The notes beneath the pieces were generated by a model. The model was not told where the DNA came from. It did not search any database and saw nothing but the letters and a program-made list of their open reading frames with translations. This document shows positions 5,556 through 61,243 of a DNA stretch of 64,000 bases, one piece after another. Origin of the DNA: Nitrospira sp. CR1.2. Lineage in GTDB: Bacteria; Nitrospirota; Nitrospiria; Nitrospirales; Nitrospiraceae. The DNA is taken from the NCBI GenBank assembly GCA_014055495.1, contig WIAG01000007.1, positions 1-64,000 of the forward strand. The letters are read 5' to 3'. The position numbers and the translations under genes were made by a program. How positions within the stretch are numbered: position 1 is the first letter of the stretch; each line of letters opens with the position of its first letter.

Positions 5556-5950
5556 GCTAGACCGCAAAGGCGCGAAAAGGGATCGGGAGTCTTTGGGTGG
5601 TGTCAAGCCGAGCGTTGGTGTGCGCGACGTACCAGCACGTCCGCTGCAGGGACGGCATGTTGCGCACCGCCTCGCATGAAAGACTCCCCTTTGTACTCCC
5701 GGCGTGAGGCAGCTCCAATGGGGAACTGACTCGCGAGTGTCGATGGAGGAGCGAAAGATCGTGGAGCGTCTGGCTTGCCGGCCGTGTGAGTTGATCGGAA
5801 GTCCGCTGAAAGCACAACGAAGAGGCGAGGCGGCCGGCCGGTCTCCGTGTTCACGGAACGCGCGCCCTCAGAAGGGCCTCGTTCGACGATGCCGCTCTTC
5901 ACGTAACCATCCGGCTCCATAAGAAGACACGATCTTGCGTGTTGGGATTA
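5556..5950. other. Intergenic region holding one hairpin motif
   Basis: No gene is supported here; several overlapping short frames look random. The only recognisable item is the hairpin motif at 5855-5892. Confidence 0.4.
5855..5892. repeat. Divergent copy of the 47-base hairpin motif
   Basis: GAACG pairs with CGTTC and GCCCT with AGGGC, with the asymmetric internal loop CGC/CT between the two stems. The copies at 24172 and 33885 have the same architecture with CAACG/CGTTG and GGCC/GGCC stems, so base changes are compensatory. This copy is about 95 bases upstream of the TumE-type toxin gene promoter. Confidence 0.55.
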
Positions 5951-16047: not shown

Positions 16048-16322
16048 CTAGCAGGTTGCGGGAAAACTCGATTCTTACCTCATCGCGCGCGGTGAGCTCC
16101 ACATGCCCTCTTGCGTCAGCACGCACTGCAGGATGCGCAAGAAGGGCCGTCCAGCAAGGCCGCAGCAAGCGAAGGGGGGAATCGTACTCTTGCGGTACGG
16201 TGAGTCGCTGAGGTTCACGCCGCGCGGAATAACGTGCGGCACGCTTGTGAACGCCGCCGAGCCGGTGAGGCGGCCGTGTCTTGCGAGAACGCCGCTGGCG
16301 GGATTTTTCCGCATCCTGGTAG
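16048..16322 (+). repeat. Long form of MITE-like dispersed element
   Basis: The left end CTAGCAGGTTGCGGGAAAA and the right end TTTTTCCGCATCCTGGTAG are imperfect inverted repeats. An internal terminus-like sequence, GCAGGATGCGCAAGAAGG, marks where the short form would begin. It is about 275 bases and encodes no transposase. Its right end is 12 bases before the ECF sigma factor start, so it forms that gene's 5' untranslated region. The remaining gap 15853-16047 shows no gene. Confidence 0.75.
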
Positions 16323-22397: not shown

Positions 22398-23351
22398 ATG
22401 ATACCTGCCGGTACCATCATCCGCAGCATCGCGATCGTGGCCACGGCCACGGTCGCCCTCGCGCTCACGGCTTGCAGCCAATTCGAGCCGCGTGACAAGC
22501 GGTTCTACTATCGCGCGATGTGGAATTTCGCCCTGCGGGAGGACCTGGCTGAACTCGACAGTGAGTTCAACGGCGTCGATTTCGGGCATTCCAATTTGTA
22601 CGAGAATCTGTTGCTGACCGGCGGCCATGACGTGCCGGCCATTGAAGAGCAGGCCCGCAGGGAGACGCTCGCGTTTATTGCGACCAAACCCCGGCTGAAT
22701 CCGAACGAGGAGGCGATCGCGCCGACGTACATGAAATTGGCCTGGCGCGCGCAAAACACCTTCGACGAAGCCCATGCCCTGCATCGGGCCACCTACGACG
22801 TCGTGGTGTCGGACGAACCGGACAAGGACCGCGCCATTCGTGACGTGCTGGCTTATTACCGGAACAGCGCCTATGCGATCACGTCGAAGCGGTTGGACCA
22901 TCGACGGTTGGACCGGTTTCCCTATTCGAAGGCGTTCCGGACGCGGTTCCCGCTGTTCAATGCGACGATCTGGTCGTATCACTACTTGCAAGTCGCTGTG
23001 TACGATCCCTTGCAGGCGGCGACGGACCTGGCCGCCAAGACCAAGGCCGTGCGGCCGATCCTGACGACCTATCGGCGGTATCTTGAGCATCCGCCGGTGC
23101 AATGGACGTTCATGCCGCTCACCGCGGAACTGAGTCCGCAGTTTGCCGCGCGGTATCCGGACGTGGCGAATATTTTCGACAATCTCCATATGCTGCACGA
23201 CAACATCAGCGACATCCTCACCAGCGAGCGCCTGCCGACCTGGGAGGCCAAGCGGCAGGAAATCTATCGTGTGGTGGATCACTATTACCTGGCCAGTGCG
23301 GATGAGACCAATCCCATGATCGTGAAGAGCGAACAGGAACATCGCCATTGA
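22398..23351 (+). CDS. Lipoprotein of unknown function
   Basis: A 317-residue predicted lipoprotein (leader ending LTAC, Cys26). The mature part is rich in Arg, Tyr and Trp and mostly helical: RFYYRAMWNFALREDLAELD, YMKLAWRAQNTFDEAHALHR, then NIFDNLHMLHDNISDILTSE. No known domain is recognised. ATG at 22398 is preferred over the start at 22329, which lies inside the upstream gene. It is the middle gene of a DUF4396 / lipoprotein / outer-membrane-protein operon, and its TGA overlaps the TTG start of the next gene. Confidence 0.8.
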   Translation: MIPAGTIIRSIAIVATATVALALTACSQFEPRDKRFYYRAMWNFALREDLAELDSEFNGVDFGHSNLYENLLLTGGHDVPAIEEQARRETLAFIATKPRLNPNEEAIAPTYMKLAWRAQNTFDEAHALHRATYDVVVSDEPDKDRAIRDVLAYYRNSAYAITSKRLDHRRLDRFPYSKAFRTRFPLFNATIWSYHYLQVAVYDPLQAATDLAAKTKAVRPILTTYRRYLEHPPVQWTFMPLTAELSPQFAARYPDVANIFDNLHMLHDNISDILTSERLPTWEAKRQEIYRVVDHYYLASADETNPMIVKSEQEHRH

Positions 23352-24133
23352 ATTGTGTGGGACGACAGGTCAGCGGATTGGTGGCCCTGATTCTACTGCT
23401 GTGGCAGCCGATGCCCGCGCGGGCGTTGGATCATGACAATCTGGACCCCAACCGTCCGATCGGGATGGAAGATGCCTATGCCATTCCCAAAGGAGAAATC
23501 GGGCTGGAAGGCGGGGTGCGGTTCAATGACCGCCGGGAAGGCCGCACGCAGGTGACGTTTCAACCGCAAATCATCTACGGTGCGTTCGACAATACGCAGA
23601 TTGAAATTCAAGGCGACCTGTTCACCGATCCGCGCTCCATCGTGGGCGCGAACAAGTCCGGGGATTTCCACCTCGGTGTGCTCTACAACTTCAATACCGA
23701 GACCCTGATCCTTCCGGCTATGGCCGTGCGTGTGGAGGTCGATCTGCCGACCGGCGTGAATTCAAAGGGAGTGGATACGCAACTCACCGGGATCGTGACT
23801 CGTTCATTCGGGAGGCTCCGGGTGCATCTCAATGCGGGGTACACCGTGATGGGATCGCCGGCAGGGCAGGAGCGTCCCGGCGCCTATCGAGCGGTGGCGG
23901 CAGTCAGTTATCCGTTGGGGTATCCGTACAGCTTCCGCGATACGCTCATCGCCAGCCTCTACACCAGACAATCGGACTTGCGTGGGCAACAGAATCACAC
24001 CGGAATCGAGGTGGGCATCCGGCATCAACTGACCTCGCGGCTGGTGGTGGACGGCGGCCTCGGCACCGAATTCCTTGGGCCCTCCGAGCGGGCGGCGTTG
24101 CTGGGAACGATGGGGCTCTCCGTGGGGTTTTAG
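23348..24133 (+). CDS. Outer-membrane beta-barrel protein
   Basis: A 261-residue protein with a signal peptide (VALILLLWQPMPARA) and alternating amphipathic strands ending in an aromatic residue (TMGLSVGF), the mark of an outer-membrane barrel. It resembles MetA-pathway or transporter-type porin-like proteins (GEIGLEGGVRFNDRREGR; VRVEVDLPTGVNSKG). The start is TTG at 23348 in a TTGA overlap with the lipoprotein gene, indicating coupled translation. The 3' end is followed after 20 bases by the hairpin element at 24154. Confidence 0.8.
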   Translation: MNCVGRQVSGLVALILLLWQPMPARALDHDNLDPNRPIGMEDAYAIPKGEIGLEGGVRFNDRREGRTQVTFQPQIIYGAFDNTQIEIQGDLFTDPRSIVGANKSGDFHLGVLYNFNTETLILPAMAVRVEVDLPTGVNSKGVDTQLTGIVTRSFGRLRVHLNAGYTVMGSPAGQERPGAYRAVAAVSYPLGYPYSFRDTLIASLYTRQSDLRGQQNHTGIEVGIRHQLTSRLVVDGGLGTEFLGPSERAALLGTMGLSVGF

Positions 24134-24153
24134 GGTAGGGATTAGCCGGGCAA

Positions 24154-24234
24154 CCTGAGTGAGTCCCCTTACTCGCGCAACGCGCGGCCTCGGAAGGCCC
24201 TCGTTGGACGCGCGCAGTTGGGGGCTCACTCAGG
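24154..24234 (+). ncRNA. Nested hairpin: conserved 47-base core inside a 15-bp stem
   Basis: The outer stem CCTGAGTGAGTCCCC (24154-24168) pairs with GGGGGCTCACTCAGG (24220-24234), with one G-T pair. Inside is the core 24172-24218 (CTCGCGCAACGCGCGG and so on), itself a two-stem hairpin (CAACG/CGTTG and GGCC/GGCC, internal loop CGC/CT). The core is 45/47 identical to 33885-33931, but the outer stem there is a different sequence. It begins 20 bases after the outer-membrane-protein stop, so it can act as a terminator or structured 3' RNA. I call it ncRNA because of the conserved structure; transcription is not shown. The rest of 24235-24500 has no gene. Confidence 0.55.
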
Positions 24235-24508
24235 CCGCCCCTTGAGGGAGTGAGGGGGAACTGGAAGGAGCATTCGATTGGGCTGCGCAGAGGTAAGAAT
24301 ACAGAAGGAGCAGCCGCCCCGTCCTTTTTGCTCGCAGACTGCGCAGGATCGGCATGCGTTCGCCTCATGCGCGCAATGAAGGCCGATGCGGCTACGAGAA
24401 GGAAAAATGAAGGAAGTAAGTAAATAGGCTATTCGAGTATCTTAAAAAGGTCGTCGTTGACAGCAGTCTTCACCGATCGGTAGGCTAGGAAAAACGGGAG
24501 GGTTGGTG

Positions 24509-33240: not shown

Positions 33241-33519
33241 ATGTCTACGACACGTGCAACTCTCACCCCGATGTCTCTCTCTACGCCGTCGTATCGAATG
33301 CATGCGGGGCCGTCGTCCGGGCGGACCATCGATCGTGGCCGAAGACGTCCGACCCGCAGGCCTGGTGGATATGAGCGACGAAGCCTCCAAGAGGGCCGGC
33401 CACGTGAGTCGGCTGTACGCCGTTCGCTTCTGAGCTGGCCGGGTCGGTTTGGACCGGCGAGCAGGTTGGTCTCCGAAGCCGTGGGAGGTGACATATGGGT
33501 CCGACCAAGGCAATCGTGA
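33241..33519 (+). CDS. Possible small basic protein (uncertain)
   Basis: ATG at 33241 follows a strong GAGGAGGTGCT ribosome binding site and opens a 92-codon frame (MSTTRATLTPMSLSTPSYRM...). Its composition after residue 30 is Arg-rich and unlike normal proteins, and it overlaps the next gene by 25 bases. Either a short real N-terminus followed by a frameshift, or a chance frame downstream of a good Shine-Dalgarno sequence. Confidence 0.25.
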   Translation: MSTTRATLTPMSLSTPSYRMHAGPSSGRTIDRGRRRPTRRPGGYERRSLQEGRPRESAVRRSLLSWPGRFGPASRLVSEAVGGDIWVRPRQS

Positions 33520-33854
33520 AAGAGCAGGCGCTCTATGACGCTGTGAGCGGCAAATTGATACAGGATGGGTTTCCGAGTGATCGGGCACTGGCAGAGTATG
33601 TGAAGCAACACTACCTTGTGCTGCCCGTGCATGACCATGCCGGCAGGCCCTGGGAGCTTGATGGGAAACCGGTGTACTGCCTGCACGGCGTGCACTACGA
33701 GACGGTGGATGATCGTCGGGTGCATCTGGCTCGATGCCCCGATTGCGGCGGCATGGCGGCCAGAACGGAGGAGTTCACCGTCGAATCCGATTGTCTTCGA
33801 TGTGCCGCCTGCGGGCATGAGTTTGATGCGCGTCTGGAAATGATGGAGACGTAG
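33495..33854 (+). CDS. Small protein with C-terminal zinc ribbon
   Basis: A 119-residue protein. Residues 1-75 contain charged helices and HDHAGRPWELDGKPVYCLHG; the C-terminus has CPDCGG (about 80-85) and CLRCAACGHEF (about 98-108), a four-Cys zinc ribbon. GGAGG is 6 bases before the ATG. No named family is recognised; a nucleic-acid-binding or regulatory role is plausible. The nested hairpin element begins 5 bases after its stop. Confidence 0.75.
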   Translation: MGPTKAIVKEQALYDAVSGKLIQDGFPSDRALAEYVKQHYLVLPVHDHAGRPWELDGKPVYCLHGVHYETVDDRRVHLARCPDCGGMAARTEEFTVESDCLRCAACGHEFDARLEMMET

Positions 33855-33858
33855 GAGA

Positions 33859-33954
33859 GGGGCCTGCCTGCTCAATGTCTTTTGCTCGCGCAACGCGCGG
33901 CCTTCGAAGGCCCTCGTTGGACGCGCGCAGTGAGATACCGAGCAGGCAGGCCCC
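33859..33954 (+). ncRNA. Nested hairpin: conserved core inside a perfect 15-bp stem
   Basis: GGGGCCTGCCTGCTC (33859-33873) pairs perfectly with GAGCAGGCAGGCCCC (33940-33954). The loop holds the core 33885-33931, 45/47 identical to 24172-24218. The outer stem is unrelated to the one at 24154. The element starts 5 bases after the zinc-ribbon gene, in terminator position. Downstream, 33960-34185 has CACG-type short repeats (CGAGATACGGTTCACG near 34008) but no gene. Confidence 0.55.
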
Positions 33955-34185
33955 AGAAAGAGAGGGCTATCTGCGATACGCCTCAGCCATACGCTCTGAC
34001 CCCGACGAGATACGGTTCACGTCTTACGTGCGACGCCCCACGTTCGACGCTCTACGATTGACCTGCCTTTCGGAGGAGCAAGAAGAAATTCAGCGACAGG
34101 AATGAGAACCGGTTATACTCGGTGCTTCCCCTTCTCATGGGGGGAGACCCGTGGGTCATACTAGAACTGGAAAGGGACGAAGGTT

Positions 34186-34752
34186 ATGGCAGGTGCAACG
34201 GTGACTCGGCGACGCAAGAACGTTCCGCAGCAGAACACAAAGGCGCCTGCGAAAAGACCCAGGAAGGCTCGTGCGCAGGAGCCTTCCGGCGCGGTGATCG
34301 TGCTGTCGGGGGCCACGCCGCTGCGACGGCAGAAAGCGGCGGAAGTGTTGGCGGACGAACTGCAACTTCATCTGGCCAGCGTGGATCTGGCGGCAGTCGT
34401 CAGCAAACATGTGCGTGAAACGGAAAAGAATGTGAATCGCGTGTTCGACATGGCGAATCGCCACGGGTCCATTCTCTTCTTCGACGAAGCAGATGCGTTG
34501 TTCGGGACCGGCAGCCGAGTACAGGATGCGCGCGATCGGTTTGCACAGACCGACGTGTCGTATCTACTGCAGAGTATCGAAAAGCATCAAGGGCTCGTCA
34601 TCCTTGCGTCGAACGGCAAAAGCCGGATCGAGGAGGCCTTTTCGCCGGAGAAGCCGGTGATCGTGTTGGGTGGGACCGCAAAAAGGAAGCCGTCGAAGAC
34701 ACCGGCTAAGGCGGCGGTGAAACCGAAGAAGAGGGTGGTGAAAAAGAAATAA
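34186..34752 (+). CDS. AAA-like protein without P-loop, basic tails (paralogue 1)
   Basis: A 188-residue protein. Residues 36-150 match the core of an AAA+ ATPase: VIVLSGATPLRRQKAAEVLA sits where Walker A (GPPGTGKT) should be, but Gly, Lys and Thr are replaced (Arg48, Gln49); Walker B is intact (ILFFDEADALFG, Asp100-Glu101); sensor-1-like VILASNGKSRIEEAF follows. The N-terminal 32 residues and the last 30 are Lys/Arg/Pro-rich like histone H1 tails. It probably binds nucleic acid and no longer hydrolyses ATP in the usual way. A paralogue is at 47878. Confidence 0.8.
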   Translation: MAGATVTRRRKNVPQQNTKAPAKRPRKARAQEPSGAVIVLSGATPLRRQKAAEVLADELQLHLASVDLAAVVSKHVRETEKNVNRVFDMANRHGSILFFDEADALFGTGSRVQDARDRFAQTDVSYLLQSIEKHQGLVILASNGKSRIEEAFSPEKPVIVLGGTAKRKPSKTPAKAAVKPKKRVVKKK

Positions 34753-47877: not shown

Positions 47878-48423
47878 ATGGTTGAGATCAGAGCGAAGAA
47901 GGCGGCCAGGAAGCCTGTAACGAAACGAGCGACGAAGACGGTGACCCCATCGGTGACGAAAACGGCCGCCCCTGCGCGGCGCAGCCGGTCCGCTCGCGCG
48001 AAGCGGCCGAGCGTGTCCGTGGTCGTGCTCTCCGGCTCGACCCCGCTTCGCCGGAATACAGCCGCGGAATTGGTGGCGGAGGAGTTGCGACTCGACCTGT
48101 CGAAAGTGAATCTGTCCTTCCTGGTGAGTCGGCGGGTCGGGGAAACGGAAAAGAATATCAATCGGGTCTTCGACGACGCGGAGCGCAGCGGTTCCATCCT
48201 GTTCTTCGACGGGGCCGATGCGTTGTTCGGTCTGCGGCGCAGTGGCGCACATCAGCATGCGGATGCCGGTGCTGCACATCTGCTGCAACGCATCGAAGAT
48301 CATAACGGACTGGTCATTCTGACCACCAACGGGAAAAGCCGGATCGATCAAGCCTTGTCGCGGCAAGCACAGGTATCCGTGATGGTGGGCATCAAGAAGC
48401 AGCCAAAGAAGAAGACGGGCTGA
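47878..48423 (+). CDS. AAA-like protein without P-loop, basic tails (paralogue 2)
   Basis: A 181-residue protein and close relative of the one at 34186. Where Walker A is expected it has VVVLSGSTPLRRNTAAELVA (Arg59, Asn60 in place of Lys, Thr). The Walker B position is ILFFDGADALFG with Gly112 in place of the catalytic Glu, so ATP hydrolysis is doubly unlikely. The first 45 residues (KKAARKPVTKRATKTV...) and the last 10 are Lys/Arg-rich. ATG at 47878 follows AAAGGGAG; an earlier GTG at 47803 lacks one. It follows the SF2 helicase gene and may act with it on DNA. Confidence 0.8.
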   Translation: MVEIRAKKAARKPVTKRATKTVTPSVTKTAAPARRSRSARAKRPSVSVVVLSGSTPLRRNTAAELVAEELRLDLSKVNLSFLVSRRVGETEKNINRVFDDAERSGSILFFDGADALFGLRRSGAHQHADAGAAHLLQRIEDHNGLVILTTNGKSRIDQALSRQAQVSVMVGIKKQPKKKTG

Positions 48424-48547: not shown

Positions 48548-48632
48548 CGAGATACGTTTCACGAATCACGCTTCACGAATCGGCGAGCGATGCGAGGACG
48601 CGGCTGACAGAATTTTTCAGCATCCTGTGAGG
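48548..48632 (+). repeat. Composite relic of the MITE-like element
   Basis: CGAGATACGTTTCACGAATC and further CACG units are followed by GCGAGGACGCGGCTGACAG and TTTTTCAGCATCCTGTGAG. The second part is a degenerate right end of the long element. The same order occurs, inverted, at 12362-12433. It ends two bases before the stop of the zinc-binding miniprotein gene. Confidence 0.5.
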
Positions 48633-60966: not shown

Positions 60967-61243
60967 GTTAGCAGGTTGCGGAAACAGTCGCTCTTTGCAT
61001 CGTTGCGCGCGCCGGGCGACACGTGCCGTCCCGCGTCACCACGCACCGCAGGATGCGCAAAAAGGCCGTCCAGCAAGGCCGCAGCGAGGTCCGCGACGCG
61101 AAGAAGAATGAGCGCACGTTTGCGGACGGGCGCGAGTCGGTGAGCGCCCAGTGTCCGCCAGGGGCGAATCGTACCCTTGCGGTACGGTGAGCCGTTGAGT
61201 GACGCGAGAACGCCGCTGGCGGACTTTTCCCGCATCCTGTTAG
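60967..61243 (+). repeat. Long form of MITE-like dispersed element
   Basis: The left end GTTAGCAGGTTGCGGAAAC and the right end ACTTTTCCCGCATCCTGTTAG are inverted repeats. An internal terminus-like sequence, GCAGGATGCGCAAAAAGG (about 61050), marks the border of the short form. It encodes no transposase. The stop codon of the SDR gene at 61240 (TAA on the reverse strand) lies inside its right end. Confidence 0.75.

Follow-up and report, generated by a model that had tools for sequence, protein, structure and literature searches.

A probable REP/BIME-like family of structured palindromes at gene ends in Nitrospira and its relatives, with outer stems that differ from locus to locus

Two hairpin-forming elements found in a contig of Nitrospira sp. 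CR1.2 are members of a repeat family that is best described as a set of dispersed structured palindromes, confined to the Nitrospira-like family, which probably resemble REP/BIME elements and supply hairpins at gene ends. The elements share a defined anatomy, are spread across one bacterial family, are placed behind stop codons, and evolve by compensated changes in their stems. In addition, units of type B are nested within units of types A and E, and gene ends are occupied recurrently across species.

The window analyzed here is the whole stretch of 64,000 nucleotides, positions 1 to 64,000 of contig WIAG01000007.1, and its elements and the genes directly upstream of elements 1 and 2 lie on the forward strand. 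Element 1, of type A, spans 24140..24248 and is matched by the covariance model R1 with 92.9 bits (E 3.6e-26), and element 2, also of type A, spans 33852..33961 (R1, 108.6 bits, E 4.9e-31). Their conserved cores, at 24172..24218 and 33885..33931, agree at 45 of 47 positions, as a preliminary description of this DNA had reported. The same description had enclosed each core in a 15-bp outer stem. This is exact for element 2, in which the left arm GGGGCCTGCCTGCTC (33859..33873) and the right arm GAGCAGGCAGGCCCC (33940..33954) form a perfect inverted repeat, and is slightly overstated for element 1, in which the left arm CCTGAGTGAGTCCCC (24154..24168) and the right arm GGGGGCTCACTCAGG (24220..24234) form 14 of 15 pairs with a single T.G mismatch. 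The outer stems of the two elements are unrelated to each other in sequence. The reported placement at gene ends is also correct, as the upstream stops end at 24133 and 33854, leaving gaps of 20 nt for element 1 and 4 nt for element 2. The open reading frame adjoining element 1 (23348..24133) encodes a Phenol_MetA_deg-like protein of the outer-membrane type (PF13557, E 9.9e-6), and that adjoining element 2 (33495..33854) encodes a protein of 119 aa with weak zinc-ribbon similarity (PF09723, below cut-off) and has orthologs in 26 of 37 genomes. When folding of the two element regions was compared with shuffled sequences, z-scores of −4.9 (element 1) and −6.7 (element 2) were obtained, and none of 200 shuffles reached the native values. 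The window also holds two diverged elements, one of type B that follows element 1 in tandem (24303..24402; R1, 44.6 bits, E 3.7e-11, with a match to the B core) and one of type E at 5821..5927 (R1, 45.4 bits, E 2.1e-11). A search of the window and five element loci against Rfam returned no matches at the gathering score.

The complete unit measures ∼110 nt and consists of an imperfect hairpin core of 47 to 50 nt, which occurs as types A, B, and E, and an outer stem. When 52 elements (types A, B, and E variant) were aligned, a common structure emerged with 18 pairs in the core and 22 pairs in the outer stem, and 32 of these 40 pairs have changed on both sides. None of 500 shuffles reached the observed covariation values, and pairing fell from 78% to 40–53% when the partners were shifted by one to three columns. 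Within the core, pairs 39-71, 40-68, and 42-66 alternate between G-C, A-U, and C-G, and the unpaired bases T5, C15, C17, A26, T33, the bulge G39 A40, and C45 (50-mer core numbering) are each 91–99% conserved among 237 distinct elements. A further module of two small hairpins, module C, is located between the left arm and the core in 20 of 255 copies, and another module is present on the 3′ side of some elements. On the gene strand, a polypurine stretch of at least 14 nt (A+G ∼80%), the left foot, lies just before the outer stem.

The core gave 22 matches in the CR1.2 genome, counted without regard to strand, and was found in 35 of 61 relatives, which represent seven genera, all within one family. 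Covariance-model searches returned 47 matches in the complete genome G006 and 51, 21, 15, and 7 in four other genomes. The exact core pattern had no match in the GTDB contig collection, a result of little weight because near relatives were possibly left out. None of 255 elements lies inside a gene called by our home-made gene caller; like REPs, the elements are thus extragenic palindromes in high copy number. Of 136 elements in five complete genomes, 100 are co-directional with replication, and only 12 are located in the chromosome quarter closest to the terminus. A full-text search turned up no account of such repeats in Nitrospira, and in a 2025 survey the REPs of N. moscoviensis appear only as a count (PMC12306157). 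Arrays of three (G000:C97:1-420) and two (G000:C53:200-440) elements, spaced 100 to 170 bp apart, were observed at contig ends of the CR1.2 assembly, which suggests that the assemblies are probably broken by these repeats.

The position of the elements relative to gene ends is not random. For the 158 of 255 elements with a sense neighbor upstream, the core begins 10 to 50 nt after the sense stop in 98 cases, with a peak at 20 to 30 nt (distances based on the home-made gene caller), which places the start of the left arm at the stop. No antisense gene start was found within 60 nt of any of the 255 elements. Of 76 copies near a stop for which a next gene was called, 68 have that gene in the same direction, within 100 nt in 26 cases. 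Operon-internal copies separate atpD-atpC, nuoA-nuoB, purS-purQ, and glmS-gatC, where atpC, nuoB, purQ, and gatC were identified from N-terminal sequences. Many copies stand between genes of one operon, a place where a terminator is unexpected. Orthologous gene ends are occupied in 33 ortholog groups, and a gene end that carries type A in one species may carry type B or E in another; these different versions at the same gene end in many species provide a direct test of paired change in a long stem. A T-run behind the stem was found neither at the two window elements nor behind the sampled copies. Based on the missing T-runs and the copies within operons, we rejected the proposal that the elements are a family of intrinsic terminators.

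The locus-specific outer stems had led the preliminary description to propose a mobile core that inserts into the loops of existing terminator hairpins, such that the outer stems would be host terminators. The variation of the stems between loci and the placement just after stops are what this model would predict, and the conditions under which the description would have given it up, other copies without flanking stems or placed randomly around gene ends, did not arise; however, the properties of the arms argue against it. In the 235 copies without module C, a strong stem is formed by a copy's own arms in 67% of cases vs 4% when arms are cross-paired between loci, so about two thirds of the copies are enclosed by a strong stem, and stem length is held to 18 to 26 pairs with a median of 22. 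The duplex of a copy's own arms averages −30.9 kcal/mol, as compared to −20.0 kcal/mol for cross-pairs. Moreover, arms from unrelated loci share a soft consensus, GGCCTGGTGGTCTCC for type A and GGGAGCAGCC..GTCCTTC for type B. The tight stem length and this common consensus are unlike the outcome of insertion into unrelated terminators.

Nested units lead to the same assignment. Three B units in G006 are located inside an A or E core; each has its own arms and tail, and all are found at one position, immediately after the apical GAAGG. At the ortholog of the 24154 locus, the A loop of G001 contains a B unit, and G006 and the window have an uninterrupted A element. Units have thus been moved or copied, arms included, into loops of their own kind, and the tight length, the shared consensus, and the arms of the nested units together indicate that the outer arms are part of the element. 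The proposed insertion into hairpin loops survives in this form, with the apical loops of A and E units as targets rather than terminators. In addition to the stems that lack a T-run and the many operon-internal copies, no empty hairpin was found at the orthologous sites of the two loci examined, those of elements 1 and 2. The model of insertion into terminators is thus largely refuted, and we regard it as very improbable. Tandem A/B/E units joined by recurrent linkers, e.g., AAGCTTGG and GAAGGAGC, form BIME-like mosaics, of which 24140-24402 is the example in the window.

No clean pre-insertion site for an A element and no mobilizing enzyme were found. As in REPIN populations that depend on a RAYT, the elements are non-autonomous bacterial repeats and some of the genomes have Y1 transposases. 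They differ from REPINs in that the Y1 genes of the CR1.2 genome are not flanked by elements and that several element-rich genomes (G008, G010, G024, G027, G032, and G036) have no Y1 transposase. The two RAYT-like Y1 genes of CR1.2 (G000:C50:27880-28227 and C107:3670-3969) have no element motif beside them. A link to RAYTs was rejected, as Y1 genes are present but non-adjacent and not required, and neither an HUH nor an integron recombinase follows the distribution of the elements.

To follow the stems through evolution, 29 independent ortholog pairs were compared. They contain 21 compensated pair changes, where about two are expected if the sides change independently; a further 73 changes are single, and three are double but uncompensated. 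One comparison, L047 with L225, shows four compensated pairs within one stem. Selecting pairs with recognizable arms inflates the absolute conservation but not the excess of compensation. Transitions account for 18 of the 21 compensated changes, which fits stepwise compensation. Together with the double-changed pairs of the alignment, these results support the second reading of the preliminary description, a structure with an outer stem that co-evolves with the locus, and it is likely that the pairing is held by selection through compensated changes.

An alternative that requires no host function is that the symmetry is kept by template switching during replication or by strand-specific repair of hairpin mismatches. 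Template switching is able to create and maintain hairpins (PMC8794818), and one copy carries its footprint: in L111 (G007, positions 1887-1937), a single multi-base change has turned the core into the perfect 13-bp palindrome CAACGCGCGGCCTTCGAAGGCCGCGCGTTG. Such a conversion is seen in only one of 255 cores, however, and on this basis we rejected template switching as the chief means by which pairing is kept. Neither process would readily account for the preponderance of transitions among the compensated changes, the nearly invariant mismatches and bulges of the core, or the better conservation of elements than of synonymous sites, and the placement behind stop codons would require a separate cause. 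We therefore consider this alternative unlikely, although repair deserves mention again below.

The locus of element 2 illustrates conservation across species. An ortholog of the element is present in G007, G018, G019, G022, and G006 and absent in G005 and G012, and we read the G014 locus as a partly deleted copy. Element 2 is 92–95% identical to its orthologs in G007, G018, G019, and G022, as compared to 58% identity at third codon positions of the adjacent gene. The spacer behind element 2 is likewise 88% identical between species (L107 vs L111 of G007), with 59% at third positions of the gene. This similarity suggests that the intergenic region may have recombined between the two species, which may explain part of the conservation of element 2.

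The unexpected part of the analysis is a strand bias in the mismatches of the outer stem. An initial count of 73 G.T vs 104 A.C included the fixed innermost positions, and their exclusion revealed the bias. Isolated mismatches in otherwise paired outer stems, scored by a single rule that treats all mismatches alike and with related stems removed, comprise 41 A.C vs 10 G.T when read on the gene strand (p 1.5e-5). Control hairpins with T-runs from the same genomes show the reverse, 12 G.T vs 4 A.C (Fisher p 9e-5, 2.5e-5). A hairpin in sense RNA should tolerate G.U, as the control hairpins do, and the A.C excess thus speaks against selection in the sense mRNA. Consistent with this, the arms are on average 3.3 kcal/mol more stable when folded as the opposite strand, and of the 63 cases with a difference between the strands, 49 favor that strand. 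The core has no such strand bias in mismatches or stability. A transcription-linked mutation bias was rejected as the cause, as fourfold sites are G-rich rather than G-poor on the gene strand and show no G-to-A bias. A replication-strand cause was also rejected: co-directional elements have 79 A.C and 24 G.T mismatches and head-on elements 22 A.C and 14 G.T, a weaker bias without a flip.

The mismatches suggest that the folding strand is the one opposite the gene. The bias would result from folded DNA of the opposite strand, from an antisense RNA, or from repair that clears a sense DNA hairpin of G.T; the last of these is how the repair alternative above would also leave an excess of A.C. It is conceivable, if still a minority view among our readings, that the selected form is the folded opposite strand, either as single-stranded DNA that serves as a substrate for transposition or recombination or as an antisense RNA. 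The reversal in control hairpins, the more stable opposite-strand arms, and the failure of mutation bias and replication direction to explain the pattern all favor this proposal, whereas the unbiased core, the lack of an antisense promoter at the one locus examined, and the lack of a recombinase that tracks the elements weigh against it. A more specific version, which we offer tentatively and rate somewhat lower, is a gene-end element in which the outer stem is selected on the opposite strand, the tip is recognized by sequence, and the base drifts freely with compensation, such that the element would be a structure-recognized site or RNA of an undescribed system.

Integron attC sites are also located directly behind stops, are imperfect palindromes recognized by structure, and fold as the opposite strand. 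If the elements were attC-like recombination sites of integron cassettes, the gene-oriented placement behind stops and the opposite-strand folding would be explained, and the GTTGGAC of type A fits the R-box GTTRRRY. This box is missing in B and altered in E, however, and the box order is inverted relative to attC, the boxes are not conserved, and the variable part is at the base rather than the tip. Furthermore, copies lie behind housekeeping genes chromosome-wide, and among the genus members searched, an integron integrase above the cut-off occurs only in G006, G013, and G014, with none in the CR1.2 genome. With integrase and box absent, the attC reading is refuted and its chance of being correct is negligible.

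The closest likeness is to the REP/BIME elements of E. coli, which are also multi-copy intergenic palindromes near stops and between cistrons. E. coli REPs are found between cistrons and at most 15 nt from stops (PMC12306157), and earlier work cited in that survey indicates that REPs near stops can stall ribosomes. Both systems form multi-unit mosaics with linkers and diverse sequence classes with the pairing kept, and both are targets of nested insertion, as REPs receive IS1397/IS621 (PMC1525189). The differences are considerable. REPs measure 20 to 40 nt (PMC3733652) as compared to ∼110 nt for the Nitrospira element, which has a conserved tip, a locus-specific base, and no fixed GTAG/CGTC tag: among 157 left feet, GTAG occurs in 12 and CGTC in one. 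GGAG, seemingly enriched and tried as a REP-like tag, occurs in 58 of 157 left feet, where it derives from the polypurine foot, and was rejected since its distance is not fixed. Unlike REPs, the elements have no associated RAYT, and their orientation relative to the abutting gene never varies. The Nitrospira element is accordingly filed as of the REP/BIME kind and not as a REP, as it departs from the tagged super-family in size, tag, and transposase. Among other large intergenic palindromes, ERIC sequences are of similar size (∼120 nt), transcribed, and conserved throughout; the Nitrospira element, in which only the tip is conserved, differs in this last respect, and the Rfam search, which served as the sequence comparison with ERIC, gave no match.

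We propose that the units, each a core closed by a 20–22-bp outer stem of its own, would spread through insertion or gene conversion, landing directly behind stops in the sense of the gene, either alone or as tandem mosaics. Each outer stem would then drift while being kept self-complementary, which would give each locus its own stem sequence. The job of the unit may be that of a gene-end hairpin in the mRNA, for 3′-end protection or cistron separation, as has been proposed for E. coli REPs. By analogy this role is plausible, at slightly less than an even chance, and it is weakened by the opposite-strand mismatch bias. If it is correct, the central operons of nitrite oxidizers (ATP synthase, complex I, and purine synthesis) carry hairpins between cistrons. 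The routes by which the stem is maintained, namely stepwise selection, template switching, and repair, are testable, as is the strand on which it folds.

Two other repeats were noted in the window. A second, unrelated family of ∼270 bp with the ends GCGAGAACGCCGCTGGCGGAnTTTTTCCGCATCCTG is located at 16049-16322, 835-961, 48592-48631, and 60969-61243 and has 56 matching pieces in the genome; its mosaic pieces suggest another intergenic repeat. Lastly, the AAA-domain genes at 34186-34752 and 48013-48423, 13.7 kb apart, share DNA stretches that are 70–81% identical and form a duplicated pair.
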